Shown here: piece by piece, positions 17,970 through 38,936 of the stretch
Numbering within the stretch: the first letter of the stretch is position 1
How the letters are laid out: the number at the start of each line of letters is the position of its first letter
Assembly: GCF_963676935.1 (NCBI RefSeq)
Contig: NZ_OY781470.1
Location: 62,001 to 126,000 of the forward strand
Source of the DNA: Halarcobacter sp.
GTDB lineage: Bacteria; Campylobacterota; Campylobacteria; Campylobacterales; Arcobacteraceae
Length of the DNA: 64,000 nucleotides
Reading direction: 5' to 3'
Translations under genes and position numbers: made by a program
Notes under the pieces: model-generated
The model's input: only the letters and a program-made list of their open reading frames with translations
Told to the model about the DNA's origin: nothing
Database searches by the model: none

Positions 17970-19172
17970 ATGTTTATTACTCCTATAATTCCAGAAACAA
18001 ATGAAATAAAAATAGATAATAGCCTTTTGAAAAAAGCTGAAACAGTTGTGATTGAAAGTGCAAAATTAACAGGTGGACACAATATTCATTTTATTAGTGC
18101 TTTAAAAGAGTTACTTAGAATTACAAATAGTTATTACTCAAACAGAATTGAATCTGAAGGTACCCACCCTATAGATATTGAAAGAGCCATGAAAAAAGAT
18201 TTTTCAAGTGACGCTAAAGAAAAAAATTTACAACAGTTGTCTTTAATTCATATTGAAGTACAGAAATATCTTGAAAAAAAAGCTTTAGATGATAGTGAAG
18301 ATAAACTATTTTCAAAAAATACTATTCTTGATATCCATGAAAAATTCTATTCAAAAGATGAAATGAAACATACTCTTGATATAAAACATGGAAACTTATC
18401 AGTTTCAATGGTACCAGGAGAGCTTAGAGATGGAGCTGTTAAAATAGGGTTACATATCCCACCTTCAGATGACGAATTAAACTCTTGTTTTAATGAATTT
18501 GAAACTTTATATAATCAATGTATACCAAGTACTAAAACAATAAAATTAATTAATGTTTTATGTTCACATCATAGATTAGTTTATATTCACCCTTTTTTTG
18601 ATGGCAATGGAAGAATTTCTAGATTATATTTAGACTACCTATTTCAAAGAATAAATTTAGATGGTTATGGACTATGGAATTTATCAAGAGGATTAGCAAG
18701 AAATATAGATGGATACCAAAATGCATTATCAAAAGCTGATGAACCTTATAGAGGTGGATATAATGATGGCAGAGGAAATTTATCATTAAAAGGTCTTGTC
18801 TATTTTTTAGAGTTTATGTTAGATATTGCATTAGATCAAATTAGTTATATGTCAAGTGTGATTAGAATTGACCAAATTTCATCAAGAATATCAAATTATG
18901 TAAAGTTTGCAGAGCAGAATATGTATTTTAATATAAAACCTCTACCCAAACATTCAAATATAATATTCCAAACCCTTCTCGTTCAAGGAGAAATACCTAG
19001 AAATAGTGTTAAAGATATATTGGGAGTTAGTAAGCCAACGGCAATAAAAATAGTAAAAGAATTAGAAGAAAGAGGATATGTGCAATCTAGTGAACCTTCA
19101 AGCCCTATTAGGATTAGGTTAAACTCACATTTTGCAGCAGAGATTATCCCTGAATTATTCCCTAAAGCTTAA
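17970..19172 (+). CDS. Fic family AMP-transferase with C-terminal winged helix
   Basis: This 400-aa protein has the complete Fic active site HPFFDGNGRISR at residues 207-218, so AMPylation or a related nucleotidyl transfer is expected. An N-terminal SNRIESEG (residues 57-64) resembles the inhibitory helix of class II Fic proteins, but with S rather than G/N after the glutamate. Residues 330-395 form a winged-helix domain (RNSVKDILGVSKPTAIKIVKELEERGYV). No separate antitoxin is adjacent, which fits an intramolecularly inhibited enzyme. The tandem repeats in front of it suggest autoregulation. Confidence 0.88.
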   Translation: MFITPIIPETNEIKIDNSLLKKAETVVIESAKLTGGHNIHFISALKELLRITNSYYSNRIESEGTHPIDIERAMKKDFSSDAKEKNLQQLSLIHIEVQKYLEKKALDDSEDKLFSKNTILDIHEKFYSKDEMKHTLDIKHGNLSVSMVPGELRDGAVKIGLHIPPSDDELNSCFNEFETLYNQCIPSTKTIKLINVLCSHHRLVYIHPFFDGNGRISRLYLDYLFQRINLDGYGLWNLSRGLARNIDGYQNALSKADEPYRGGYNDGRGNLSLKGLVYFLEFMLDIALDQISYMSSVIRIDQISSRISNYVKFAEQNMYFNIKPLPKHSNIIFQTLLVQGEIPRNSVKDILGVSKPTAIKIVKELEERGYVQSSEPSSPIRIRLNSHFAAEIIPELFPKA

Positions 19173-21762: not shown

Positions 21763-22347
21763 ATGGCTGAGAAAATCAAAAGAATAAAAGAGAGTATTAC
21801 AGAGATTGAGTTTAAAAAGTTAATGTCATATATTAGAGGTGATGAATCTATTAGAAAAAATACAAGAGACAATTTACTTAGAACATTTATTTTTTTATAT
21901 TTTTCTGGTTTGAGATTAAATGAGGTTCAGGAATTAAAAATAAAAGATGTAAAAAATTTGCTTGATGAAGGAATGATAAAAGTTTATGTGTCTAAAACTT
22001 CTAGTGAGAGAAAAATATATTTATCAACTTCATTTAAAAAAGAAATTGAGAAGGTATTTGATTTTACCAGTGAAGATGATGAAAATAGAGTTATCTATAA
22101 AAGTGTGAATAAAAAAGACAAGATAAATAATATTGTTTTTATACAACAGGTCAATTCCAAAATGAAAGAGATACTTGGATCTGGATTTACTTCACATTCA
22201 TTTAGACAAGGATTAATTACAGAAATGGGAAGTAAATCTATTAATGTGAAGATTATTTCTAATTTTATTGGTCATAAGAATGTTAGTACAACACTAGGTT
22301 ATATTAGACCTACTGATGAGCAGATTAGGGATGCTTTGGTTAGATAG
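21763..22347 (+). CDS. Tyrosine recombinase, catalytic domain only
   Basis: In 194 aa the catalytic residues are complete and in order: R51 (SGLRLNEV), K78 (VSKTSSER), H145-x-x-R148 (SHSFRQG), H171 (GHKNVSTT) and Y180. The usual N-terminal core-binding domain is absent. Such short recombinases act in fimbrial switches and in some small mobile elements. It directly precedes the methyltransferase gene, so it may invert or mobilise the neighbouring defence genes, or simply be a trimmed integrase. Confidence 0.75.
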   Translation: MAEKIKRIKESITEIEFKKLMSYIRGDESIRKNTRDNLLRTFIFLYFSGLRLNEVQELKIKDVKNLLDEGMIKVYVSKTSSERKIYLSTSFKKEIEKVFDFTSEDDENRVIYKSVNKKDKINNIVFIQQVNSKMKEILGSGFTSHSFRQGLITEMGSKSINVKIISNFIGHKNVSTTLGYIRPTDEQIRDALVR

Positions 22348-22494: not shown

Positions 22495-23565
22495 ATGAAG
22501 AGTGCAGTAGATATTTTTAGTGGAGCAGGCGGATTGAGTATTGGTGCAGAAATGGCCGGTATTAAAACAATTCTTGCTGTAGAATTTGATAAACATGCTG
22601 CAGATTCATTTAAAAAAAATCATAAAAAAGCTACGGTTTTAAATCAAGATATAAGAACTGTAAATCCTCTAGAACATACTAAGAAGTTTCCATTTATACT
22701 TATGGGTGGTCCTCCTTGTCAAGGTTTTTCTATTGCTAATACAAAAACAAGAAATTTGGATAATCCAAATAACTGGATGTTTAAAGAATATTATAGATTC
22801 TTAAAAGAATTGGAACCAGAATGGTTTCTATTTGAAAATGTTGAAGGGTTTAAATCTTTTGATAAAGGAAAATTTGCTCTAAATATAGAGGAAGAATTTA
22901 AAAAATTAGGTTATGAAACAAGTTCATCTGTATTAACTGCCTCAGATTTTGGAGTTCCACAAAAAAGAAATAGGTTTTTTATCGTAGGCAATAAGAATGG
23001 TATTAAATTTGATTTTAGTTCACTAAAAAAGAAATCTATTGTTACAGTAGGTGAAGCACTATCTGATTTACCAAAAGGGCTTCAAAATGGAGAACATAGA
23101 GAAATATGTTCTTATACAAAAAATGCAGATAGTTTATATTTAAAAACTATGAGAGAAAAAGCTAAAGCACCAACTCAAAATCTAATAAGTAGAAATAAAG
23201 ACTATGTTATAGAAAGATATAAATATATTAGACCAGGTAAAAACTGGCAAGATATTCCCTCTCATCTTATGCAAAATTATTCAAATACCAAAAATATGCA
23301 TAGTGGTATTTATAAAAGACTCGATTCATCTCAACCTTCAGTTGTAATAGCTAACTATAGAAAGAGCATGCTTATTCATCCTGAAGAAGATAGGGGTCTT
23401 TCCTTAAGAGAAGCTGCTAGATTACAAAGTTTTCCTGATCATGTGATTTTTGAGGGACCACTAAGTTATAAACAGCAGCAAATTGGAAATGCAGTTCCCC
23501 CTCTATTAGGGAAAACTATATTTGATAAAATTATTGCTTATTCATCGATAAAACTTAATTCGTAG
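22495..23565 (+). CDS. DNA cytosine-5 methyltransferase
   Basis: This 356-aa enzyme has all main C5-methyltransferase motifs: I (DIFSGAGGLSIG), IV with catalytic C75 (GGPPCQGFS), VI (ENVEGF), VIII (QKRNRFFIVG), IX (LSLREAARLQSFP) and X (QIGNAVPP). The target-recognition region is roughly residues 185-290. It should protect host DNA from the nucleases encoded downstream on the other strand. Its 3' end overlaps the opposing gene by 28 bp. Target sequence cannot be read from the gene. Confidence 0.95.
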   Translation: MKSAVDIFSGAGGLSIGAEMAGIKTILAVEFDKHAADSFKKNHKKATVLNQDIRTVNPLEHTKKFPFILMGGPPCQGFSIANTKTRNLDNPNNWMFKEYYRFLKELEPEWFLFENVEGFKSFDKGKFALNIEEEFKKLGYETSSSVLTASDFGVPQKRNRFFIVGNKNGIKFDFSSLKKKSIVTVGEALSDLPKGLQNGEHREICSYTKNADSLYLKTMREKAKAPTQNLISRNKDYVIERYKYIRPGKNWQDIPSHLMQNYSNTKNMHSGIYKRLDSSQPSVVIANYRKSMLIHPEEDRGLSLREAARLQSFPDHVIFEGPLSYKQQQIGNAVPPLLGKTIFDKIIAYSSIKLNS

Positions 23566-24485
23566 AATTTAAATTCATTAAATGTTTTCGTATAATTGTC
23601 AGTATTATATTCAATAGGTTGTGCATAGCAGATTTGGATATCTTCGTTCATTAAGCCAATTTTAGCAACTCCAATTGTAGATATCTTTGAATTAGCAGCT
23701 ATAATTACATTATTAAATTCTTTATTATTATTTATAATTTTATTTAATGTCTTATAAGTGTTTTCAGCGTTATTACATGAAAATTCAAAATTATCAATAT
23801 TATCTAAATCACTAATAATATTTTTAGTAAATTTATCAACTTTTTCATGTAGAGTATCATTATATTTAGAAAGTTCATTTGTAAAACTTGACTCAAAAGA
23901 ACCTTTACCAACTGATATCTTATAAGGTTCATATTCTTGTATGATTTTTTGAATTCTTTCATTTTCTAAACCAACTAACAATATTAAATGAAGTTTTTTT
24001 GATGGCAATAAATTACCTGAATATCCTATAATGTTTCTTATTTCTTTAACTCCTTTACTTAACCAGCCTGATTCTTGAAATGTTAAATAATGTTTCATAC
24101 TTGTGTAAATTAAATTTATTGAAGAATTAATTTTTATATGACTTAAAACTTTTAAAATTATCATTAAATGTTCATGTGTAAATGTTGAACAATCTAAATC
24201 CATTGTAGAGTTTTCAAAATCTAATATGTAATCTATATAATTATCTATAGTATTTAATGGATCACTAATTGATGTTTTTACAAAAATAAACTTTTCCTTA
24301 TCATGAAAAAAGTCCATTTCATCTTGATAATTATTTATAAATTCTTCATTATAAAAAATTATATATTTTTTATAAGAATTTTCTAATAAATACTTTTTCC
24401 ATCTCTCTTTTTCAAAACTCATACAAACTAGTAATACATCAGATCTTTCAAAGTTTATATCAATTGGTCTAATTTTCATATTCAT
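23538..24485 (-). CDS. Unassigned protein of the HD/ATPase trio
   Basis: This 315-aa protein alternates hydrophobic strands and helices in two Rossmann-like halves, joined near residue 160. Examples are SDVLLVCMSFEKERWK, STFTHEHLMIILKVL, KLHLILLVGLENERI and NNVIIAANSKISTIGVA. There is no nuclease motif. The last block loosely recalls nucleotide-sensing CARF-type domains, but I cannot assign it. It follows the ATPase gene by 9 bp and is probably the third gene of an HD-ATPase-sensor operon. Its 3' end overlaps the methyltransferase gene tail to tail. Confidence 0.6.
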   Translation of the reverse strand: MNMKIRPIDINFERSDVLLVCMSFEKERWKKYLLENSYKKYIIFYNEEFINNYQDEMDFFHDKEKFIFVKTSISDPLNTIDNYIDYILDFENSTMDLDCSTFTHEHLMIILKVLSHIKINSSINLIYTSMKHYLTFQESGWLSKGVKEIRNIIGYSGNLLPSKKLHLILLVGLENERIQKIIQEYEPYKISVGKGSFESSFTNELSKYNDTLHEKVDKFTKNIISDLDNIDNFEFSCNNAENTYKTLNKIINNNKEFNNVIIAANSKISTIGVAKIGLMNEDIQICYAQPIEYNTDNYTKTFNEFKFYELSFIDE

Positions 24486-24494
24486 AAAAAATCC

Positions 24495-26258
24495 TTAAAA
24501 ACCTGGTAGTGTAGGTTGAATGTTTTTTAAGCTGTTATTATCTTCTTGTCGAAGTTTAGCTAATTTTTGGTTTGGATTTGTTAATGCACATTTAATCCAT
24601 TCTGTCGTTAATGATTGATACCCTGAAAAACCATTAGGATCGAGTTTAAAATATGGTGCAAGAACTCTTGTTAATATATATAATTCAGTTCTTCCAGGAG
24701 AATTTTTTTTCCCAATTTTAGATTCATATAACAATCCATATTCTATTGCAAGTTTTAGAATTTCTTTAATTTCAGTTGTAATATTTTTTTCATCACTAAT
24801 TGTAAATGAAAAAACTCTTCTTTCTGATAAGTCTGATAAAAGAATATAATGAAAATTTTGTCCTATAGCAGTAATAAAATTTTTTAATCTTATAATTTTT
24901 TCTTCATGAACATTGTTATTTGTTATCTCTTTTTCTAAATGTTCAAACTGAGAAGTAAAAAAATTATCTGATTCTCTTTTTATTATATTATCTTGAATTG
25001 AACTTTCAATAAATTCTAAATTTTTTGGATTTTTTAAAAGTTGTTCAGAATACATTTTTGATAGAGGTTCTAAAAAATGTCTAATTATTCCAGAAGAAAT
25101 ATTTACTAATTGTTTAAATCCAGAATAACTATAGTTAGATTTTTGTTTACGCTTACCACCTAATTCTTTAATATAATCTGAACGTGCATATCTATATGCA
25201 TCATCATTTACTTGGTTTCCTTTTCCTTTTCCTTCATGCCATTTTTTCTTAAATTCTTCACTAATTTCCTGTATTCTTTTTACTTGTGATTTTTTCTCTG
25301 GTAAAAATTCATATGCTGTTGAATCAATATTAATTGTCTTTAACCTCTTTTCTACTATATCTTTTACAAAATTTGTATATTCTTTCTTTTTTTCTGATGA
25401 AACTACATAAGAAAAAATAATTTCATTGTAATCATGAGGTTTTTCAATTCTACTATTTGAAATTGTTCTAAATGTTTTATATTTCAATTGGGTAGAAATT
25501 TTAAAACTAATATTTTCAGTATCTCTATATAAAACCCATTCATTTAATATTTCAGTAAAAACTAGAGGTAAATTATCAGCATCATCAATTAATAAAAGTA
25601 TATCTTTATTTAAAACTCGATTTTTATCAAATTTTTTCAAAAATTTTATTAAAGGTAATAAGAAGTCATGATAAGTTGTCAATATTGATGGTTCAGAAAT
25701 ATCTTCTGGTCTTCTTGCAATGGACATTTTTCTTCTTATTAAGTTGTCTTTACTCCAGTTAAGTTCAAATAAATTTAACAAATCTTTTAAAATAAAATCA
25801 TTATTTAAATTTGAAACATCAAAACCTAAAAGTCCAATTTTATTTTTAAATACGTTTATTTCTTTTTCATCTAATGATATTTTATAATCAATAAAATCTA
25901 TTAATTCTTTACATATATTAATAGCAAAATGTAAACAAAGCATATGTTCTGCAAAATATTTTTCTAATATATCATTTTTTAACCTTTCTAATTCAGTTGA
26001 TGCTAATACGGATCTTTTAATTGGAATATAAATACAAATAAAAGGCAAATCTTTAATATTTTCAAAACCTTTGTATTTTATATAATTTTTACTTCTTAAT
26101 ACTTGTAAAGCCATACTTTTACCACAACCTCTATGTCCATGTATAAAAGTATGTCCTTTTTTTTCTAAGCTTTTAAAATCAATACTTTCTACAAATAAAC
26201 TTTTTATATCATCTGATGTTATATTTTCTGGAGTTACTACTGAAAATGGATTTGTCAT
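24495..26258 (-). CDS. ORC/CDC6-like AAA ATPase of the defence trio
   Basis: This 587-aa protein has Walker A at residues 41-48 (GHRGCGKS) and Walker B at 221-228 (LLLIDDAD), giving an ORC/CDC6- or STAND-like P-loop ATPase. The N-terminal NPFSVVTPENI leader is characteristic of defence-associated members. The middle (residues 280-400) is charged and helical; the C-terminal 150 residues look like winged-helix domains (YGLLYESKIGKKNSPGRTELY). Its ATG overlaps the HD gene stop by 4 bp, so the two are translationally coupled. It probably acts as the switch of the module. Confidence 0.75.
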   Translation of the reverse strand: MTNPFSVVTPENITSDDIKSLFVESIDFKSLEKKGHTFIHGHRGCGKSMALQVLRSKNYIKYKGFENIKDLPFICIYIPIKRSVLASTELERLKNDILEKYFAEHMLCLHFAINICKELIDFIDYKISLDEKEINVFKNKIGLLGFDVSNLNNDFILKDLLNLFELNWSKDNLIRRKMSIARRPEDISEPSILTTYHDFLLPLIKFLKKFDKNRVLNKDILLLIDDADNLPLVFTEILNEWVLYRDTENISFKISTQLKYKTFRTISNSRIEKPHDYNEIIFSYVVSSEKKKEYTNFVKDIVEKRLKTINIDSTAYEFLPEKKSQVKRIQEISEEFKKKWHEGKGKGNQVNDDAYRYARSDYIKELGGKRKQKSNYSYSGFKQLVNISSGIIRHFLEPLSKMYSEQLLKNPKNLEFIESSIQDNIIKRESDNFFTSQFEHLEKEITNNNVHEEKIIRLKNFITAIGQNFHYILLSDLSERRVFSFTISDEKNITTEIKEILKLAIEYGLLYESKIGKKNSPGRTELYILTRVLAPYFKLDPNGFSGYQSLTTEWIKCALTNPNQKLAKLRQEDNNSLKNIQPTLPGF

Positions 26259-27265
26259 GCATCACCTTTATTTTTTTCTATTTCTTCATATAAATCTTCA
26301 AGTCCAAAAGCTTCAATTTTTGGATAACTATCAGTAGTACTTATTGAAATAGTTTTTAATATATTGAAATATTCTTCATCAACTAGATGTATTTTCACAT
26401 TAATTTTTTCTATATTGAATGAATTACACATAAATCTTTGGAAATATTTTCTTTCTACTTCTAATTTTTGTAATCGATTGTAAATTTCCTCAAGTAATGT
26501 AACTTTATCACCACTTGGTTTTATATAAATCTCATTTTCATTTTCACTTATTTCAAATGTTAAATTAAGTGTACTGTCTTCATGAGAAATACTTAAATTA
26601 CTCATTGATAATGAATATTTATGAAATACAATATTTTCTTTTTGTATATTTTCAAATTTAAGTTGAGATAGATTTGTTCTATGTTCACCTTCTTCTAATT
26701 CATCAGAAAATCTTACAATTGCAGCTAACATTTGAGGTCTAATATATTTACTATCTATTTGTGTAATTTTTTCTAAATCTTTTATTGTATCTTTAGTTCC
26801 AGTTAAAGAGTTACCTGTATGAGCAGAAGCAATTTCTGATATTAATCTAAGACTAGCTATTTTAATTTTCATAATTTTTAAAATATTCAGTGTATATAAT
26901 ATATTAGTACTATGGTCTTCTCTATTGATGATTAAGCCTATATCATGAACTCTAATAGAACATAGTAATATAAATAGTTCCAGTGAATTCTGAAAAAAGA
27001 AAACTCTTTTTTCTTCATTACTTAATAAATCAAATGCTTTCTCTTTTGCTAATTTTAGAATTTCATCTGCTCTTAATAAATAACCTGCTTGTTTTATAAC
27101 TAAATCAAAATGTTTCTTATCATGATTAGTATAAATTCCATTTTTAACAGCTAGAGCTTCATTAATACAGGGATAGATATCACTTGTTAAGTCTTTTAAT
27201 AATGAATTATATTCTTCATACAAATTTTGGTCAATATGTTGTAATATTCTTTCTAAATCTTCCAT
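26255..27265 (-). CDS. HD-domain phosphohydrolase of the defence trio
   Basis: This 336-aa protein (numbered from the TTG at 27268) has candidate metal ligands H49/H53, H108-D109 (RVHDIG), H150 (SAHTG) and D189 (RFSDEL). These form the HD superfamily pattern. Residues 200-335 form an additional alpha/beta C-terminal domain. It should hydrolyse a phosphoester such as a nucleotide or cyclic nucleotide; the substrate is unknown. I chose ATG 27265 (MEDLERI) over the TTG one codon earlier. It heads the trio, whose genes overlap or lie within 9 bp of each other. Confidence 0.72.
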   Translation of the reverse strand: MEDLERILQHIDQNLYEEYNSLLKDLTSDIYPCINEALAVKNGIYTNHDKKHFDLVIKQAGYLLRADEILKLAKEKAFDLLSNEEKRVFFFQNSLELFILLCSIRVHDIGLIINREDHSTNILYTLNILKIMKIKIASLRLISEIASAHTGNSLTGTKDTIKDLEKITQIDSKYIRPQMLAAIVRFSDELEEGEHRTNLSQLKFENIQKENIVFHKYSLSMSNLSISHEDSTLNLTFEISENENEIYIKPSGDKVTLLEEIYNRLQKLEVERKYFQRFMCNSFNIEKINVKIHLVDEEYFNILKTISISTTDSYPKIEAFGLEDLYEEIEKNKGDA

Positions 27266-27290
27266 CAATTCCCACTATTATTTTTATAAT

Positions 27291-27552
27291 TTAAATTATA
27301 ATATATTTGCAATTATAATAATCATTAATCAACGTTTTTAAAGCTGAAATATCTAATACTTCTTTATTAAGTAACACATATTTAAGTTCTAAATTCTTTT
27401 CTTTTATGTATTTCATCGCATGACTATTAAATATCATAGGTTGTTGATTTAGGCTTACTATAGTTCTTGCATTGAACTAGTAATGTTTTATTTTCTTTAG
27501 TATAAATTAAATCTATACCTTTATCAATTTGTTTCTCATAAAATTTTTTACC
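27291..27552 (-). pseudogene. Truncated Mrr-type restriction nuclease remnant
   Basis: Between HNH and HD genes the minus strand encodes FYEKQIDKGIDLIYTKEN followed by LLVQCKNYSKPKST. This is the D-x(n)-QxK active-site segment of Mrr-like PD-(D/E)XK nucleases. It stops after TTYDI, but the homologous text resumes in another frame (HAMKYIKEKNLELKYVLLNKE ... YYNCKYIII) to a TAA at 27291. The 5' part, including the start, is missing and the HNH stop lies over the break. It is a decayed nuclease at the junction of the two defence modules. Confidence 0.7.
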
Positions 27553-28234
27553 TCATTAATCTTTCTATATTTTTATAAATTTCATTTATTAAATTTTTTC
27601 TATTTTTACCATAATGTAATTCTCGATGGCAATTAGGACATACTGCAATTGCATTATCTATTGTATCACTTCCTCCATCAGACAATAGTTTTAAATGATG
27701 TACCTCTAAAAAATAAGAATCATCTTCTTTTTCAAAAGGAGCAGCTTTTTTACAACATTCACAAATTCCTTTAGAATTCTTCAATATCCAAGCAACAACT
27801 TTGGGATCTCTTTTAAAATTGGTTACTTCAACATTTTCTCTTTTAGGGATTTTATTACCTTCAGGTATAGTATCTTCATTAATATTTTCATACTTATAGA
27901 TTTCAGAATTAAAAATTAAATTTTCTCTACTTATAAAATTTTCATATTTAGTAATTAATTTCTGAATTGTATCAATTTGTCCTGGACTAACTCCACTTGC
28001 TGGCTTTAATCCAGGTATATAATCTCTTCCCATTAAAGTATAAACATATGATATATTTTGCATCCTATATTCAAATGATTTTATTGTTCTACCAAATTTT
28101 TCTACTAATTCCTCATAATATTTTTTTTTAATAAAATTTTCATCATTCAAGTACTTATTTCTCATATCAACATAGGCTTTTACAGACTCATCTAATTCTT
28201 CAATTGTCCATAGATTTTTAGTATTCTTTTTCAT
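27548..28234 (-). CDS. HNH endonuclease
   Basis: In this 228-aa protein the C-terminal 75 residues are an HNH nuclease with structural zinc. The key parts are C158/C161 (GICECCKK), H179-H180 (LEVHHLKLLSDGG), N194 (DNAIAVCPNCHRELH), C199/C202 and H207. The N-terminal 140 residues are helical and may give specificity. It begins one base after the AIPR gene stop and is the last gene of the minus-strand operon. It is probably a DNA-cutting effector. Confidence 0.88.
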   Translation of the reverse strand: MKKNTKNLWTIEELDESVKAYVDMRNKYLNDENFIKKKYYEELVEKFGRTIKSFEYRMQNISYVYTLMGRDYIPGLKPASGVSPGQIDTIQKLITKYENFISRENLIFNSEIYKYENINEDTIPEGNKIPKRENVEVTNFKRDPKVVAWILKNSKGICECCKKAAPFEKEDDSYFLEVHHLKLLSDGGSDTIDNAIAVCPNCHRELHYGKNRKNLINEIYKNIERLMR

Positions 28235-28235
28235 T

Positions 28236-30320
28236 CTAAATTTCTAAACCTATATCTTCTAATCTATAAACTGCGTTCATTAAGTCAATAGATACTTTTT
28301 CTTTATTTGTAATATCATTGTGCATTATAATTGCTTTATCAATTAATCCTATTTCATATGCTGTTAATTCATTATTATCAATTGCAAAACTCTTAATTTC
28401 TTGCCACTTTTTATTTTTAATAAGATCAAATACTTTCTTTTGAGCTTCTATTCCATTGTCTTGCTTTTGTTGTTTCTTAGCAATCTTTTTATCTTCAGAA
28501 AATTCTTCTTTATCTAAAAGTTCATTCATAAACTCAGAGGGTATTTCAATTTGTATTTTTTGTACACTTTGCCAACATCCAGGTTTCTTTGCCCATTGAG
28601 AAACATTTGCCACTCCAGTTGGTGGATTAGTAAGATCTTCATATACAGTTTTTGTTATAACTTTTAATAAGTCTTGTGTAGCGAAACTAATTTTTTGTTT
28701 ATCCCAAACATTCATAAAATCAAAATATTTATTTTTTTGTTTTATAATATGATCTAAATATGAAATAGAATATGCTACCGTTTGAGCTCTAAATCCACCA
28801 TCATACCAAGGTGAATTTGAAATGATATCTTCAGTAGCTTTAAATATTATAGCTTTCGCAATAGCTGATTTATAGTAAAATTCATTGTATTCGGCTTCAC
28901 CTTTTTCCCATTTCTTACCAATCTCTTTTGCATATTCTACAAAACTATATTGAGCTCCTTTAGCAACAACATCTGGTATACCTTCCCAAACATTTTCATA
29001 TTTAGAAAAATCTGTTTTAGTAATAAGTTGTTTCTTGGGATACTCTTTTAAAAACTTTTGAACCTCTGCAGGTGTTTTAAATGCTTGCTCATCTTTATAT
29101 TGTCCTCTAGCTCGTTCATAAAACCATTTTGTTTCTCGATGCCCTCCAGTTGCATCTTTTGCATAAACTCTTCTAGAAAACTCTTCCATACGAACATGAA
29201 ATGGATGATTTGAGAAGAAATCTGCTGCATTTACTTTATTTTGAGTATTAGCATATTCAGAAATTTTTTGTACAAATTTAGTATCTTCGCTTTCATCATC
29301 AACCAAATCAAATGGAGCAATTGTAAGTTTAACTTGTACAAATAATTTAGATAATTGATCTTTAGCCTTATCTTTTATTAGTGCTCTATAAATAGATGCT
29401 GATGTTTGTCCCCCATTTACTATTTGTAAATTTTTTAATTTCTTTATTTTTAGGCCACCTTTAGTTTGCTCAGTAATAATTTCTTCTGCAATAGTTGTTA
29501 AACCATTGTTATAAGCAAAAAACTTATCAGGCTTTTTTAGTATTGTATTTCTAATTCCTTTATTTACTTTTCCTTGTGCTTGTAAAAAAGTCCTAACATT
29601 TTGCTCTAAAAGTTTAGATCCATGATCCGCATATAGTTTTGATAATATTGTTCCAGGTAAAACTAATAAATAAGACTCATAATTAGATGTATTTAAATGT
29701 GCTGGTAAACAATAAATTGGTGTTTCAGATATCTCATCAAAATCTATTAAAATGTCTTCTCTTTGCTGCTTTGAAGAATTCATTCTAAATAATCTGCTTA
29801 TATCCCATATTCTATATGAATATTCTATTTCATCAAGAACAACACTTGGAGGTGTTTCTGCTTTTTCACTTATAATCTTATTACTTAGAAGATAAAAACG
29901 AATTTTTGAAAAGTTTCTTTTATTTTTATGAATTATATAAGAGATATCATATACTGGTGTTGATTCTTCAAGTTTTGAATAGTAAGATTTATCTGAAGAA
30001 TTTTTATAAAATTTTTCCAATCTATTAAAAGCCTGATTAATTTCTGTCTTTGTAAGACTTTTTTCAGAGATATCTTGACTAAAAACTGTTACAAATAAAT
30101 TTAATATTTGTTCATCTTCATCATACGAATATCCATTAACCTTTATTCCTGTTTCATACCAATATGATATTTCAATCTCTTCATCAATCTCTCCAATTTC
30201 TTGTAACTCTTTAGCATATTTTTCTGTAAAAACATTTTCATAAAAGTCATTATTAACTTCAGAAGAGTTAAAGATATCTTGTAGATAATTTTCTCTAAAA
30301 AGTTCAATTTGGCTAGACAT
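28236..30320 (-). CDS. AIPR family abortive-infection protein
   Basis: This 694-aa protein is of the AIPR (abortive infection phage resistance) type. The conserved core is at residues 270-440, with FAYNNGLTTIAEEI, LQIVNGGQTSASIYRALI and RGQYKDEQAFKTP. An N-terminal DUF-like alpha/beta domain precedes it. AIPR proteins occur in restriction-like and abortive systems; the biochemical activity is not well established. Its start overlaps the end of the PD-(D/E)XK gene by 8 bp. Confidence 0.85.
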   Translation of the reverse strand: MSSQIELFRENYLQDIFNSSEVNNDFYENVFTEKYAKELQEIGEIDEEIEISYWYETGIKVNGYSYDEDEQILNLFVTVFSQDISEKSLTKTEINQAFNRLEKFYKNSSDKSYYSKLEESTPVYDISYIIHKNKRNFSKIRFYLLSNKIISEKAETPPSVVLDEIEYSYRIWDISRLFRMNSSKQQREDILIDFDEISETPIYCLPAHLNTSNYESYLLVLPGTILSKLYADHGSKLLEQNVRTFLQAQGKVNKGIRNTILKKPDKFFAYNNGLTTIAEEIITEQTKGGLKIKKLKNLQIVNGGQTSASIYRALIKDKAKDQLSKLFVQVKLTIAPFDLVDDESEDTKFVQKISEYANTQNKVNAADFFSNHPFHVRMEEFSRRVYAKDATGGHRETKWFYERARGQYKDEQAFKTPAEVQKFLKEYPKKQLITKTDFSKYENVWEGIPDVVAKGAQYSFVEYAKEIGKKWEKGEAEYNEFYYKSAIAKAIIFKATEDIISNSPWYDGGFRAQTVAYSISYLDHIIKQKNKYFDFMNVWDKQKISFATQDLLKVITKTVYEDLTNPPTGVANVSQWAKKPGCWQSVQKIQIEIPSEFMNELLDKEEFSEDKKIAKKQQKQDNGIEAQKKVFDLIKNKKWQEIKSFAIDNNELTAYEIGLIDKAIIMHNDITNKEKVSIDLMNAVYRLEDIGLEI

Positions 30321-31266
30321 TAAAAATCCTTTCTTTTACTTTTTCCTCTTCTAGAATATTTTTACTGCATGTATTTAGATCAATTGTATATTTGATACTA
30401 GAAATTCCACTAGGAGTATTTGAAAAAGTTAATCTTGGAAAATTGTCATCAACTTCATAAAACATATTTTTAATAAAAGCATAAAATCTTTCATTGTACT
30501 CAGGTAATTCTATATAACCCATTTCCAATAAAAGAGACTCAAATAATTCAATAGATTCATAATCCTCAATTAATTCTTTAATACTATTAATTAATGAAGA
30601 TAAACTATATGAGTTTTCTTCTGACTTATTTAAAGTTAAAACAAATAAGTATGCAGATTTTGTTTGAAAATTTAGTTGTTCAATTGAACTTATATGTACT
30701 TCTGAAGAAGTTGTACCTAACTTCGTTTTTACTTCTATACTAGTATTCCCTATTCCAAAATCTTGTTTATCACCTATAGGTCCTCTCCAAAAAGATAATG
30801 CTAAAGGAGAAGAATAATGATTAAACAAATACTCTTTTAGAAAAAAAAGTTCCCCCATTAATCCTTGTTGTTCTTGTTCTGTAAGTAGTTTTTTACCAGT
30901 TTTTCTAAACATCTTTTGCCATCTTTGCAAACGATTATGCATTGCAGTTAATAAAACTTTTTCATCATCTATTTCTTTTGATAAACTTAAAATATCATCA
31001 CACAAAGTATAAAAAATATCCCAATCATTTAACATTTTAAGAGTTAATAAAATTCTAAAACCTGATTGTAATTGGTACTGTTCAATCTCAATTTCATTAA
31101 ATGACAATTTCTTATTTGGCCAATCTTCAAAATTTTTATGTTCTAATAAAAACAAATATTCTTTATTTTGATTTAGTCCCCAAAAAAAATCAAACTTATT
31201 TAGAGGATCACATCTTTTAAAGTTAATATCTTGAGTTAATTCTTTCCAAGGATTATTCTTCATCAT
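30313..31266 (-). CDS. PD-(D/E)XK nuclease (DUF4420-like)
   Basis: This 317-aa protein has the active-site pattern D169 (GDKQDFGIG), then E178-V-K180 (SIEVKTK), preceded by E139 in QGLMGELFFL. This is the arrangement of the PD-(D/E)XK family found next to Z1 helicases. It should be a DNA endonuclease. It overlaps both neighbours (14 bp with the Z1 gene, 8 bp with AIPR), showing one operon. Start ATG 31266 or the adjacent ATG 31263. Confidence 0.85.
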   Translation of the reverse strand: MMKNNPWKELTQDINFKRCDPLNKFDFFWGLNQNKEYLFLLEHKNFEDWPNKKLSFNEIEIEQYQLQSGFRILLTLKMLNDWDIFYTLCDDILSLSKEIDDEKVLLTAMHNRLQRWQKMFRKTGKKLLTEQEQQGLMGELFFLKEYLFNHYSSPLALSFWRGPIGDKQDFGIGNTSIEVKTKLGTTSSEVHISSIEQLNFQTKSAYLFVLTLNKSEENSYSLSSLINSIKELIEDYESIELFESLLLEMGYIELPEYNERFYAFIKNMFYEVDDNFPRLTFSNTPSGISSIKYTIDLNTCSKNILEEEKVKERIFNV

Positions 31267-33955
31267 CTTCGTATCCAGTGTATTGGTTTTTAATATATGT
31301 AGTATTTACAGCAAACTCAACTTCTTCTATATCAGGACCTTTTAATGGGAAGCTAATTCCATATGCAAATAAATCTTTCTCTACAAGTGTATTATCATCT
31401 TTTATATCAGTATAAGAATTAATAAGATGTAGCATTAACAATGGCTTACTTCTATTTTTTCTTAAGAATCTACCATTTAAAGATGCTATTTTAAAATCTT
31501 TTTTTTTCATATTATTTGTTTTAATATGTTCATCAATTGCATTTGATAATTCATCCTCACTCATTCCTGCCATTTCAGCATATATATTACCTACTCTTCT
31601 TCTTTTGGTAATTTCAATAAAATCATTTTCTTTATAATGAGGCTCTTTTTTTTCAACCGTTCTTCTTTGAATATGTATATCTAATCCAGATAAAGTTGTA
31701 GTGGTTTTTTCTTTTTCATTACTAACTATAACTACATCCCAGTTTTCAAAAGCGGCTTGTGCATTTTTTAAATATGCTACTAAAGGTTGTGTTTCTGTCA
31801 TATGAGAATTCTTATAGTTTCTAAAATCAAAAACAAAATCTATAATATATTCAATTGGTATATTTTCAAAGACATAGTTATTTTGTTTGTTCTTATTTAT
31901 ATTTTTTAGTTTTAATAAATTTGAAACAAAATTATTAAGTAAGTTGAAATTAAATTTCCTATTATCAGGTTTTAAATCAAGTTTATCTGACTCTAATAAC
32001 TTTCCTTTAAAATTAACCTTTCTTCTAACTATTGTAGCTGTCCTCATTTTATTTTTTGCAGTAATTAAAAGTGACCCAGGATGAGTTCTAACTTTAATTC
32101 CAAAGTCTTTAGGTGTTAAACCTTTTGCAAACATTTCTTTTAATTCATCTCTTAATTCTTCTGTTGCCTCTGCAATATGACTAAAATATGCTTCAGTCAT
32201 AGGAGTTAAGTAAATTCTACATAAATCATGATACCCATCTCTGTAACCAAACCATCTACCCATTTGCATTAAAGTATCATACATTGATGTATTTCTATAA
32301 AAATAACTTGTTGCTAAACCCTCAAGTGTTAAACCTCTTGATAGTCTATCTCCACCAACAGCTATAACATTTAAGCCATTTTCTTTATAAATAGCATAAT
32401 CCAAATTATCGTCAGAATCACCATTAATCAACATAGTCTGCATTGGACCACAAGCTTCTAAAAGTAAGTCTTGAATCTCTCCCCAATTTGAATGAATATT
32501 TCTATATTCTTTTTCCCAAGTATTATAAAGGTTAACAATATAACCATTTTTTATAGCATCTTCAAATGATAACTTATAATATGACCTAATATTGTTTAAC
32601 ATATTTTGTTTATACTGTGCAATTAATCCATAAACTTGTTTTTGGACATCTTTAAATCTCGAAACATGAACTAACATTGAATGATGTTTTTTATTCTGAC
32701 CTCGAATTATTCTAATAGCTTTAGAAATTATATGTGAATTTATGGCTTCAAATAAACTATCAGGTAAGGCTACAAAGTCAGCATCTTTTTTGTGTCTTAC
32801 AGGTAGGATATCTTCAATATCATTTACCTCTCTAATAATATTGATTTCTTCTGTACTATTAAATATTTTTTCTGCACCAACATAGTTATTTGGTGGCTCT
32901 AAACTATATATAAAATCTCTTGGAAACAAATCATCATTTAACATATCATCATCATTATCTGGATCAATAAAAATATTTGCAAATGGAGTTGCAGTGTAAG
33001 CTAAATAACATTTTCTATTAAATAAAGATAATATTTCCCTAATTCTCTGATTTATTGCAGTAGGATCTTTATCTGGATTATTTGTATTAACCGATGCGTG
33101 ATCTGCTTCATCATCAATCATAAGTAAAGGTAAATCTGAAATAGTTCCGTTTAAATTTGTATTATTTCTTTTAAGCCACTCTTTTAATTTTCTTAATACT
33201 GAAGTATTCTTTTTCACAACTATTATAGTTGCATTATTGTATTCATTTGGTTGAAAGTTAGTTGTTGTTTTAAAATCATTGAACTTGTCTGTTAATGTCA
33301 TAGGTATTCGATTTGGATCAATATTCCCAACTCCAATTAATGTTTCTGATCTATCAACATTATCTTTTTTACTACTATCTTGTCCAATGTAGCCTTCATC
33401 TACTCTAATTTGAGTTTGAGATCTTAAATCTTCTATCATTCCTGCAAGTATTATAATTAGTTTATATCCTACATCTGAAGCTTTATTTACTACTCCAATA
33501 AAGTTGGCAGTTTTACCTGATTGTACATGTCCTACAACCATTCCCTTTCTGTTCCAATATCCTTTTTTTGATGGATTTTCTAAGCGACCTAATATTTTAT
33601 CTGTTACATCATCTATCCTAGAGATTATTTGGTCAGGAAATTGTTGTTGAAATAGATACTTTTTATATCTATTCCAAAAATATGGCTCAAAATCTTCTGA
33701 AGCTTTTTTTTCTGGAAGCCAAGGAGTAAATTCTTCTTTAGATTCTAGTAAAGTTCCTTCTTCCATTGTTAACCCAAACATATATTCAATATGTTTTGCT
33801 ATATCTTCAATCTCATTTTCTAGTAATTCAATTGGATTTAAAGGATTAGCTGCAAAATGCACAATTAATTTACGAATAAATTCAGGTGTTTTATTGTCTG
33901 GTGTTTGGGATAGGTCATGTATTACATTATTTATAAGTTTTTCTTTTATATCCAT
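31253..33955 (-). CDS. Z1-domain helicase-like ATPase
   Basis: A protein of about 900 aa. Numbered from TTG 33964, Walker A is GHVQSGKT (145-152) and Walker B is DDEAD within LLMIDDEADHA (284-288). The central Z1 domain contains VGGDRLSRGLTLEGL and LMQMGRWFGYRDGY, a superfamily II helicase motif VI-like arginine arrangement. Family members are tied to restriction systems with GHKL ATPases. I start at ATG 33955, three codons into the longest frame, because it has GAAAG upstream; TTG 33964 overlaps the previous stop. It is the putative translocase. Confidence 0.9.
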   Translation of the reverse strand: MDIKEKLINNVIHDLSQTPDNKTPEFIRKLIVHFAANPLNPIELLENEIEDIAKHIEYMFGLTMEEGTLLESKEEFTPWLPEKKASEDFEPYFWNRYKKYLFQQQFPDQIISRIDDVTDKILGRLENPSKKGYWNRKGMVVGHVQSGKTANFIGVVNKASDVGYKLIIILAGMIEDLRSQTQIRVDEGYIGQDSSKKDNVDRSETLIGVGNIDPNRIPMTLTDKFNDFKTTTNFQPNEYNNATIIVVKKNTSVLRKLKEWLKRNNTNLNGTISDLPLLMIDDEADHASVNTNNPDKDPTAINQRIREILSLFNRKCYLAYTATPFANIFIDPDNDDDMLNDDLFPRDFIYSLEPPNNYVGAEKIFNSTEEINIIREVNDIEDILPVRHKKDADFVALPDSLFEAINSHIISKAIRIIRGQNKKHHSMLVHVSRFKDVQKQVYGLIAQYKQNMLNNIRSYYKLSFEDAIKNGYIVNLYNTWEKEYRNIHSNWGEIQDLLLEACGPMQTMLINGDSDDNLDYAIYKENGLNVIAVGGDRLSRGLTLEGLATSYFYRNTSMYDTLMQMGRWFGYRDGYHDLCRIYLTPMTEAYFSHIAEATEELRDELKEMFAKGLTPKDFGIKVRTHPGSLLITAKNKMRTATIVRRKVNFKGKLLESDKLDLKPDNRKFNFNLLNNFVSNLLKLKNINKNKQNNYVFENIPIEYIIDFVFDFRNYKNSHMTETQPLVAYLKNAQAAFENWDVVIVSNEKEKTTTTLSGLDIHIQRRTVEKKEPHYKENDFIEITKRRRVGNIYAEMAGMSEDELSNAIDEHIKTNNMKKKDFKIASLNGRFLRKNRSKPLLMLHLINSYTDIKDDNTLVEKDLFAYGISFPLKGPDIEEVEFAVNTTYIKNQYTGYEDDEE

Positions 33956-33960
33956 AAGTT

Positions 33961-35406
33961 TCAACTTTCTAGTTTATAGTTTACAAAATTCTCACTAAAC
34001 TCAATGAAATGACTAAATGGTTCTGTATTAAGAAACTTTTTTTTGATGATATCATCTTCATTCCCCATTTCTTTTTGTATTTTCCAATAGTCTTCGGCAT
34101 ATTTTAAGAGTTTTTCTTTTTCTATATTTTGTTGTCTAATATTTTCAGGTTGAATTGTCATATCAGAATAAATTGTGTCAATCGGTAAGTTATCTTCAAT
34201 ATAACTAAAAATTTCTTTTACAGAATTTTTATCTTTTAGATCTAGATTACTTAGTAATTCACTAATCATTGGGTGTTCCAAATTAATTTTATAACTTTTC
34301 TTATTATGGTTATGATATTCATTCCAAAATGATACATTATCTTTTTTTGAGATTTTAGCACCTCTTTTTGTATATACTCTAGTCGATTGTGAAGTTATCT
34401 TATCAATAGTTCTTTTTAATTCATTTTTAATATTATCGGGAGGAACAGCTTGAGATTTTTTAACATCAATTGACCAAGAAAAATCCTCTGAATTAGGAAG
34501 ATCTATTTTTACTCTTGCAAGTTTTGTTATATCTGTTTTTTTTATTAATCTAAACCATGTTCCATATACCAATAATCTTGAATTTCTATATATATAAAAT
34601 CCTTGTGAATTTAAATAACCATCTTTACCTTCTAACTTTTTGTATTGTTCATATGAAATTTTACTATGATGTGGTAATAAATAAGCTTGCATTTTAATAT
34701 TATTAAATTCTTCTTCTGGAAATGGTTTCCCCGCTCCCTCAAAAGGATTGAATGGGATTAGGTTGTCGTTATTAAGTTTAATGACAATTTTCTTTATTCC
34801 CGGTTCTCCAGTTAAGTATCTGTGAAAAACCAAAGATAAATGATCTCTTAATATCGCAATCTTTTCTTGAAAAATATCTTCAGCTTTTCTTTTTGTATTT
34901 TTTTCAATAAGTTTATCTAGCTTTTCCCAAACTACTAAAGTTCCACAACTTAGTAATTTATTAATTTTTATTATATCTTGGAGTTTATTATTTAAATTTT
35001 CAATTTCCCATTTTTCAGTTTTTATTATGTGTTCTAAATCCCAACATCTTGCATATGTATTTAAGTTTTGTGAAGAGGCAACTGTTAATTTACTTGCTTG
35101 AGAAAAAGATGCTGTTTTTAGACCTAAACCAAATCTTCCTAAGTCATTTTTTTGTCTTGTTTGGAGTGGATTAAGAGAACCTAATTTCATTGCATCTTTT
35201 AACTCTTCTTCATTCATTCCAATACCATTATCTATGATAGCTATATAACTATTCTGAAAATCAAATTTAATATAGATATTGATTTCTGTTGCTTTAGCAG
35301 AAATACTGTTATCAATTATATCGGCTACTGCAGTTTCTAAAGAATAACCGATGTCTCTTAACGCACAAATTAAATTTTTAGCTGAGGGAATATTTTCTTC
35401 AAACAA
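33961..35406 (-). CDS. GHKL ATPase, paraMORC type
   Basis: This 481-aa protein has an N-terminal histidine-kinase/Hsp90-type ATPase fold: N-box with D32-N33 (ADIIDNS), G1 (DNGIGMN, residues 59-65) and G2 (DLGRFGLGLKTAS, 88-100). A transducer (S5-like) domain follows to about residue 330, and the C-terminal 150 residues are charged. It matches the prokaryotic MORC-like ATPases predicted to work with Z1 helicases and nucleases. The only reasonable start is TTG 35406, because an upstream ATG is out of frame or followed by a stop. First gene of the minus-strand operon. Confidence 0.85.
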   Translation of the reverse strand: MFEENIPSAKNLICALRDIGYSLETAVADIIDNSISAKATEINIYIKFDFQNSYIAIIDNGIGMNEEELKDAMKLGSLNPLQTRQKNDLGRFGLGLKTASFSQASKLTVASSQNLNTYARCWDLEHIIKTEKWEIENLNNKLQDIIKINKLLSCGTLVVWEKLDKLIEKNTKRKAEDIFQEKIAILRDHLSLVFHRYLTGEPGIKKIVIKLNNDNLIPFNPFEGAGKPFPEEEFNNIKMQAYLLPHHSKISYEQYKKLEGKDGYLNSQGFYIYRNSRLLVYGTWFRLIKKTDITKLARVKIDLPNSEDFSWSIDVKKSQAVPPDNIKNELKRTIDKITSQSTRVYTKRGAKISKKDNVSFWNEYHNHNKKSYKINLEHPMISELLSNLDLKDKNSVKEIFSYIEDNLPIDTIYSDMTIQPENIRQQNIEKEKLLKYAEDYWKIQKEMGNEDDIIKKKFLNTEPFSHFIEFSENFVNYKLES

Positions 35407-37780: not shown

Positions 37781-37815
37781 AAATAATTCCTAGTATATTA
37801 TACTAGGAATTATTT
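37781..37815. terminator. Bidirectional terminator, perfect 17-bp inverted repeat
   Basis: AAATAATTCCTAGTATA (37781-37797) is exactly inverted at 37799-37815 with a single central base. Both arms begin or end in A/T runs, so it can stop transcripts of the micropeptide (plus) and the integrase (minus), whose stop codon overlaps its last base. Confidence 0.85.
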
Positions 37816-38936
37816 CAAAAGTTTAAATTGCTTATTGCATCTTTACCACTATCAGGAGATAACTTAGCATATCTAAGAGTCATTTTTATATCACTATGAT
37901 TCATAAGTTTTTGTATGGTAAAAATAGGGGTTCCATTAATAGCAAGATGTGATGCAAAAGTATGCCTAAGAGTATGAACCACCGCTCTATTCTTTCTATC
38001 TTCTTTATCTAGTCCTTCATTAAATAGTTTATTTAAAATATCTAACATTTGTCTTTGTATTGTTGTTGGTTTGTCTGAAAATATTCTATCATTGAAATTT
38101 AGGTTTTCACACCATTTCTCAAGTAAAATAGTAAGTTCTTTGGTTAAAAAACTTTTATATGATATTCTTCCTTCCTGATCTTTTTTTAAATCATATAAAG
38201 TAATAAGTTGATTACTAAAATCTATATCTTTTTTAGAAATATATAGAATTGAAGCTAATCTTGTTCCTGTTGTTAAAGCAATTTTTGTAAATAAAAAAAG
38301 TCTTGGATTATCTTCTAGATATTTGTATAATTTATTTATCTCTTCTAATGTCAAATATCGATCTCTAGTGTTTCTGATTGATTCTAGTTCAATATACTTA
38401 ATATAGTTGTTTTTTAATAGCTCTTCTTTAATTGCAAAACTAGTAATAGATTTAAGAATGGTAAGTATATTATGAACAGTTTTATCTGATAAAGGCAATA
38501 GCTTTTGGTTTTTTGACTCTTTTATTTTCGTTTGAAGTTTTCGAATATCTTCCTTTGTAATACTTTCAAGATCTTTTTCATAAAAAAAGGGTTTAAGATG
38601 TTTTTTAAACGTAGAATAATCACTATCTTTGCTTTTCCCTTCTTTTCTCGTTTTAAAATACTTTTCTTGAATATCATCTAATAATACTTTTTTAGCTTTT
38701 TTATTCTTCGCTGCAGCAGGTGGCTCTTCACCTAGTCTTATTTTAGTAATGATTTCATTTCTTTTCTGATAGCAATAGTTTTCTCTAATCCCTTCTGAAA
38801 ATTTACCTAGTTTAATTTCTTTTGTCTTGTTATTTAAATCTTTATATGTGATATAATAAGTTTTGTCAGGTTTTCCATTTGAAATAGATTCTCTATAATA
38901 TACGCCAGTTTTAGAAGTTTTTATTCTTTTATTCAT
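37815..38936 (-). CDS. int: Island integrase, tyrosine recombinase
   Basis: This 373-aa protein has an N-terminal arm-binding domain (residues 1-65, GVYYRESISNGKPDKTYYITY), a core-binding domain (85-185) and a catalytic domain with R226 (TTGTRLAS), H321-x-x-R324 (HTLRHTF), H347 (MNHSDIK) and nucleophile Y356. Length and domains are those of P4/Tn916-type integrases that insert into tRNA 3' ends. It lies 167 bp from attR and has a putative arm site directly upstream, consistent with autoregulation. It probably catalyses integration into and excision from tRNA-Arg. Confidence 0.95.
   Translation of the reverse strand: MNKRIKTSKTGVYYRESISNGKPDKTYYITYKDLNNKTKEIKLGKFSEGIRENYCYQKRNEIITKIRLGEEPPAAAKNKKAKKVLLDDIQEKYFKTRKEGKSKDSDYSTFKKHLKPFFYEKDLESITKEDIRKLQTKIKESKNQKLLPLSDKTVHNILTILKSITSFAIKEELLKNNYIKYIELESIRNTRDRYLTLEEINKLYKYLEDNPRLFLFTKIALTTGTRLASILYISKKDIDFSNQLITLYDLKKDQEGRISYKSFLTKELTILLEKWCENLNFNDRIFSDKPTTIQRQMLDILNKLFNEGLDKEDRKNRAVVHTLRHTFASHLAINGTPIFTIQKLMNHSDIKMTLRYAKLSPDSGKDAISNLNF

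Follow-up and report, generated by a model that had tools for sequence, protein, structure and literature searches.

What do three adjoining genes of a Halarcobacter genome do for their host, given that they encode an HD-domain enzyme, a P-loop ATPase and a protein that could not be assigned when its sequence was first read? The genes lie in a 64,000-nucleotide stretch of contig NZ_OY781470.1 (hereafter, the window), and the original prediction, made from the sequence alone, regarded them as a candidate defence trio not described before. Comparison with related loci indicates that they are the core of a widespread four-gene operon, probably of immune type, that combines a methylase, an HD enzyme, an ORC ATPase and a double CARF sensor.

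Gene Content of the Locus

The coordinates (Table 1) agree with the proposed arrangement of three minus-strand genes joined by a 4-bp overlap and then a 9-bp gap. The genes had been placed between a methyltransferase and a five-gene restriction-like operon within an integrated island; we found a C5 methylase on one side and HNH and MzaE/D/C/B-like genes on the other, and two tyrosine integrases fit the island. The same island holds a Fic-domain protein with a winged-helix tail (17970–19172).

Table 1. Features of the locus, in window coordinates
Feature	Position	Strand	Remarks
Tyrosine integrase	21763–22347		
Dcm, DNA cytosine-5 methyltransferase	22495–23565	+	PF00145, 2.9e-67; fourth gene of the quartet
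CARF6 tandem CARF sensor (predicted)	23538–24485	-	315 aa; 9-bp gap after ATPase gene
ORC-CDC6-like AAA+ ATPase	24495–26258	-	587 aa; 4-bp overlap with HD gene
HD-CE phosphohydrolase	26255–27265	-	336 aa; ATG at 27265, alternative TTG at 27268
Decayed Mrr-like nuclease remnant	27268–27547	-	Between HNH and HD genes; reading frames of 27260–27560
HNH endonuclease of MORC/Z1-type module	27548–28234	-	PF01844, 3.7e-11
AIPR / MzaE-like	28236–30320	-	PF10592, 7e-97; MzaE below equivalog cut-off
DUF4420 PD-(D/E)XK / MzaD-like	30313–31266	-	PF14390, 1.2e-75
Z1 helicase-like / MzaC-like	31253–33964	-	PF10593, 5.8e-78
GHKL (MutL/MORC-like) ATPase / MzaB-like	33961–35406	-	PF13589, 6.5e-35; MzaB PADLOC, 3e-79
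Tyrosine integrase	37815–38936		

The HD-CE protein matched PF24391 with 57.5 bits (2.2e-15) and the ATPase matched PF24389 (ORC-CDC6-like) with 302 bits (1e-89), both above the curated Pfam cut-off of 27. The ligands of the HD enzyme are intact, as had been claimed, the seven residues of metal-ligand type (H48, H52, H107, D108, H118, H149 and D188) being identical in 28 of 28 homologues, and K267 is likewise invariant. The Walker A (GxRGxGK[ST]) and Walker B (DDA) motifs reported for the ATPase are conserved among its homologues apart from single variants; a sequence search for a solved structure of this protein found none. We modelled the other two proteins with AF2, leaving plasmid-derived rows out of the alignments used for structure prediction. 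The HD model (pLDDT 86) is nearest to PPX/GppA (Z about 12) and then to class I cyclic-nucleotide phosphodiesterases (PDEs; Z about 10.5), and its profile weakly matches PDEs (E 1e-3). For a helical fold, Z values of this size are modest, and the likeness fixes no substrate; Cas3, dGTPase and SAMHD1 are not among the matches listed, which excludes none of them. There is no recognised nuclease domain in the trio beside Dcm, and the HD enzyme may be one.

The third protein had been left unassigned, as a possible sensor to be compared with CARF, SLOG and other folds. The CARF option was borne out and an assignment found, as PADLOC places the protein in CARF6 (PDLC01917, 8.4e-69). The best match in the PDB for its model (pLDDT 87) was Can1, with a Z of 14.5 and an rmsd of 3.8 over 230 aligned residues covering both halves, and the best 34 structural matches were all CARF or SAVED folds. 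By this model, the protein is a sensor with two CARF units in tandem, similar to Can1, and it stands alone, with no fused effector. The CARF6 class itself reportedly comes from the classification of Makarova et al. 2020.

The Quartet across Genomes

A scan anchored on the ATPase covered 84,980 species genomes together with viral contigs and genome samples and yielded, besides the window, 29 HD-type loci with both flanks present. All 29 have the order dcm, HD, ORC, CARF6 on one strand, and the spacing from gene to gene mostly lies in the range of -110 to +20 bp. The recurrence of the trio as a unit was thus confirmed, the three genes being together in every informative locus, and a search for their independent occurrence did not contradict the grouping for the HD type. 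What did not stand was the number three: the trio is a real conserved unit, but a fourth gene, that of the C5 methylase, always accompanies it. When plasmids were searched with each trio protein separately, the identical four plasmids were matched, with the genes contiguous. Pairwise identity in any one of HD, ORC and CARF6 correlates with that in the others at 0.90–0.93, and Dcm identity correlates with that in each of the three at 0.62–0.72.

The hosts span several phyla and include Acinetobacter, Burkholderiales, Rhizobiales, Rhodobacterales, Magnetococcales and Desulfovibrio, as well as Bacteroidota, Verrucomicrobia and Candidatus Edwardsbacteria. The quartet occurs on plasmids and is absent from a genome of the same genus. 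Among viral contigs, a single-protein search found no match and an alignment search found one locus; phage records gave one short match only, and the E. coli genomes searched gave none. Four candidate loci were rejected, two for weak CARF6 matches in unrelated proteins (L004 and L005) and two because their ATPases were unrelated (L103 and L104). The comparison shows the C5 methylase, HD enzyme, ORC ATPase and tandem-CARF protein to be, as far as gene order and sequence can tell, one conserved, mobile, operon-like unit.

The methylase of the window is placed differently from its relatives: it is convergent with the CARF6 gene, overlapping its 3' end by 28 bp, whereas elsewhere it is the first gene of the operon. 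Its usual place is occupied here by the decayed Mrr-like remnant, for which the matches to Mrr_cat_2 (5e-4) and Mrr_cat (2e-3) are weak and both just below cut-off. The window Dcm, the sole C5 methylase of its genome, is 62% identical to the quartet Dcm of locus L034 and 60% to that of L013, compared with at most 34% to the Dcms of MZA-like operons, and by both tree and identity it falls in the quartet Dcm clade; for that reason we rejected its membership in the MZA-like module by descent alone. For the target-recognition half (residues 183–342), the best solved relative is the eukaryotic DNMT1 (3e-36).

The Neighbouring Module and the History of the Locus

Upstream of the trio, an operon of HNH and MzaE/D/C/B-like genes spans 27548–35406. 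Its MzaB to MzaE matches score 335, 582, 133 and 358 bits against equivalog cut-offs of 850, 1500, 420 and 1050, and by these scores the proteins are relatives of MZA, not MZA proper. Operons of GHKL, methylase and AIPR genes, some with HNH or Vsr genes, have been described as restriction systems (Iyer et al. 2008; PMC2292703). Of eight other MZA-like loci sampled, seven have a divergent Dcm of their own, and no HNH gene was seen in any. The nearest relative of the window, L034, comes from the same taxonomic order and carries an MZA-like module with HNH and a single Dcm, its trio having the opposite orientation to ours. The module genes and Dcm of the two loci are 52–62% identical, whereas the trio genes are only 26–28% identical; the trio and Dcm trees disagree and place the two trios in different lineages (supports 0.97–1.00). 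Because of these differences in identity and the discordant trees, we infer an exchange of a trio cassette around the Dcm common to the two modules. Z1 genes are absent from all quartet loci other than these two.

An Exchangeable Enzyme beside a Constant Core

We sampled the ORC-CDC6-like family in genomes of Gammaproteobacteria, Alphaproteobacteria and Bacteroidota and in plasmids, and found its matches almost always adjoining CARF6. The comparison shows ORC and CARF6 to be constant, judging by domain matches, while the enzyme and the type of methylase vary. An HD enzyme is paired with a C5 methylase; a PRTase-CE in the same slot goes with N6/N4-type methylases where these were identified (L035, L097 and L137–L142), and a calcineurin-like phosphoesterase goes mostly with a Dam-type methylase (L096, L098, L133–L136 and L146). 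In two loci, a protein kinase is fused to the N terminus of the ORC-CDC6-like ATPase (L091, 5787–10450, and L092, 5032–9752), and these fusions adjoin CARF6 and an N6/N4 methylase. As neither PRTases nor kinases are nucleases, the slot cannot be regarded simply as that of a restriction nuclease, and the exchange of the HD enzyme for a PRTase, metallophosphoesterase or kinase, as predicted from sequence, argues against an obligatory DNA nuclease. The slot also offers natural swaps for finding what the ORC/CARF6 core controls.

Two PRTase/ORC/CARF6 loci (L095 and L102) have a HAD-type hydrolase upstream, a gene of PfkB-like appearance downstream and no adjoining methylase. Another PRTase-type system (L035, 4947–14286) adjoins TniQ/TniB/Mu-type transposition genes, suggesting Tn7-like carriage.

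Source of the CARF Ligand

To our knowledge, CARF sensors are known almost solely for reading cyclic oligonucleotides that Cas10 makes, and the related SAVED domains for reading CBASS cyclase products. We searched 24 genomes with the system for Cas10 and SMODS cyclases. A clear Cas10 was found in one (G306; 103.7 bits, 904 aa) and SMODS cyclases in two. For the window genome (G000), the searches found no clear Cas10, the palm matches reaching at most 34 bits, and no SMODS cyclase in either the genome or the operon; weak palm matches, these among them, were taken to be GGDEF proteins. In many phyla, a tandem CARF protein is coupled with a DNA methylase and with an ATPase that resembles replication initiators, and most of the genomes searched have neither a clear Cas10 nor SMODS. 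This raises a directly testable question: what does CARF6 sense?

Association with Thymidylate Synthases

A thymidylate synthase lies within about 7.5 kb of 11 of 54 loci (6 of HD, 4 of PRTase and 1 of phosphoesterase type); the gene is absent from most loci, and none adjoins the system in the window. By a rough estimate that assumes one synthase per roughly 4-Mb genome and takes no account of the loci not being independent, chance would place one near fewer than 1% of loci. Both ThyX and ThyA, which have unrelated folds, occur, as confirmed with Pfam, and in L096, L099 and L140 the synthase gene overlaps the methylase gene or is a few bases away. The five genomes tested all have a separate ThyA elsewhere, which makes the linked synthase an extra copy, and for these five we rejected its being the housekeeping gene. 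Extra ThyX or ThyA genes adjoin ORC/CARF6 in L007, L008, L019, L021, L023, L096, L099, L137, L139, L140, L141, L146 and L147. In a Moraxella PRTase operon (L142), a dUTPase lies 3 bp upstream.

In the reverse direction, we looked at 13 rhizobial plasmids that carry this ThyX: in 10 an ORC/CARF6 system adjoins it, and in the remaining three (L143, L144 and L145) ThyX stands beside a two-gene cassette. In L143 (7932–11290), it directly precedes the PADLOC candidate defence pair PDC-M65A/B, and by gene size L144 and L145 share this layout. Thymidylate synthase may thus be a wider defence companion, and it is listed among the newly validated defence domains in the DefensePredictor paper (PMC13092281). 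The extra synthases beside related loci suggest, from gene neighbourhood, a thymidylate pool that is hit or needs refilling, and the repeated pairing with unrelated synthases names the metabolite to measure first.

Discussion

We tentatively read the quartet as a methylation-marked immune operon with an HD effector that probably acts on nucleotides, and hold this reading with a confidence a little short of even. The methylase would mark self DNA, and the ORC ATPase, as a DNA-binding switch of initiator type, would recognise incoming or replicating DNA that lacks the mark. CARF6 would gate the response through a nucleotide ligand made by neither Cas10 nor a SMODS cyclase, and the HD effector would halt phage replication, probably by hydrolysing nucleotides or a messenger of nucleotide type and not by cutting DNA. 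We counted for this reading the gene order in 29 of 29 loci, the correlated identities and the invariant HD and ATP sites. By analogy, the validated metallophosphatase–NACHT system of DefensePredictor, which needs its phosphatase residues (PMC13092281), shows that a phosphoesterase with an NTPase can protect. A broader proposal appears unlikely as a whole: the loci would form a methylation-licensed family with an ORC-CDC6/tandem-CARF core and plug-in enzymes, in which CARF responds to a nucleotide that no known cyclase makes, the effector is directed at the thymidylate branch of the nucleotide pool, and the host escapes harm through an extra thymidylate synthase or dUTPase.

The quartet could instead be a strict restriction–modification system in which ORC and CARF6 load the HD enzyme as a Cas3-like metal-dependent DNase that cuts unmethylated DNA. 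HD domains such as that of Cas3 do cut DNA, the C5 methylase is an obligate partner in 29 of 29 loci, the conservation of the Dcm target domain (0.49) is close to that of the core (0.53), in keeping with one common recognition site, and Vsr beside a few loci fits real 5mC. We nevertheless consider this unlikely, as the matches listed by the fold search for the HD enzyme, albeit with modest Z values, are led by PPX/GppA and cyclic-nucleotide PDEs rather than nucleases, and the slot is also filled by the nonnucleases PRTase and kinase. A different role for the exchangeable enzyme would be to make or destroy the CARF6 ligand, the HD enzyme tuning the signal and the killing step lying in the ORC/CARF6 complex or elsewhere. 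The lack of a Cas10 or SMODS ligand source in most genomes, the resemblance of the HD enzyme to cyclic-nucleotide PDEs, the nucleotide-handling nature of PRTase and phosphoesterases and the stand-alone CARF6 all agree with this, but no recognised effector would then remain and a kinase as slot enzyme is hard to accommodate, and we regard it as quite unlikely.

Locally, the trio might be an accessory of the MORC/Z1/AIPR restriction module and not an independent system. One Dcm is common to both modules in the window and L034 and is co-inherited with the module genes, yet all other loci carry the quartet without Z1 genes and the two trios descend from different lineages, which makes this explanation highly improbable. 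We keep to the methylation-marked operon as the preferred reading, and the earlier view of the trio was, as a whole, partly right.

Relation to Known Systems

The domain families of the quartet are already catalogued. In the literature searched, which left Makarova et al. 2020 and Burroughs and Aravind 2020 outside its coverage, we did not meet the grouping as a system that has been named or tested by experiment, and we found nothing on HD-CE with ORC-CDC6, CARF6 or PRTase-CE. The description of the grouping as new holds to that extent, but the Pfam accessions of the ORC-CDC6-like ATPase (PF24389), the PRTase alternative (PF24390) and HD-CE (PF24391) are consecutive and CARF6 is catalogued, which makes an earlier recognition of the grouping probable; the two 2020 works likely predicted it.

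The match to the CARF6 model of PADLOC-DB is strong, but CARF6 is a catalogued sensor family rather than a defence system that has been named or tested, and here no cyclic-oligonucleotide synthase accompanies it. Can1, Can2, Card1 and other CARF effectors of type III CRISPR share the CARF fold, and Can1 has two CARF units per chain, but CARF6 is without their fused nuclease and the window genome without a clear Cas10. Similarly, CBASS couples a CD-NTase (SMODS) with a sensor, and the operon in the window is without SMODS. In sister systems, HD gives way to a PRTase that matches PRTase_III-A of retron III-A in PADLOC; the window has HD, and the neighbours examined included no gene recognised as a reverse transcriptase. 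Upstream of the trio, the five-gene module is of the kind found in MORC/Z1/AIPR operons and MZA (PMC2292703), but homologues elsewhere have their own divergent Dcm and no trio, and the module is separate from the quartet. The metallophosphatase–NACHT system DS-8 (PMC13092281) protects and, like the quartet family, couples a phosphoesterase to a P-loop NTPase switch; it is a single protein with a NACHT rather than an ORC-CDC6-like domain, with no methylase and no CARF. Among the PADLOC matches listed for the nine proteins between 22495 and 35406, there were none to the BREX families PglZ, BrxC or PglX/BrxX (for the methylase, the best 25 matches). BREX and BREX-related systems (PMC12839542) resemble the quartet in joining an ORC/Cdc6-type AAA+ ATPase with a DNA methylase in a compact operon; in place of BREX components, the quartet family has a CARF sensor together with an enzyme of HD, PRTase or phosphoesterase type.
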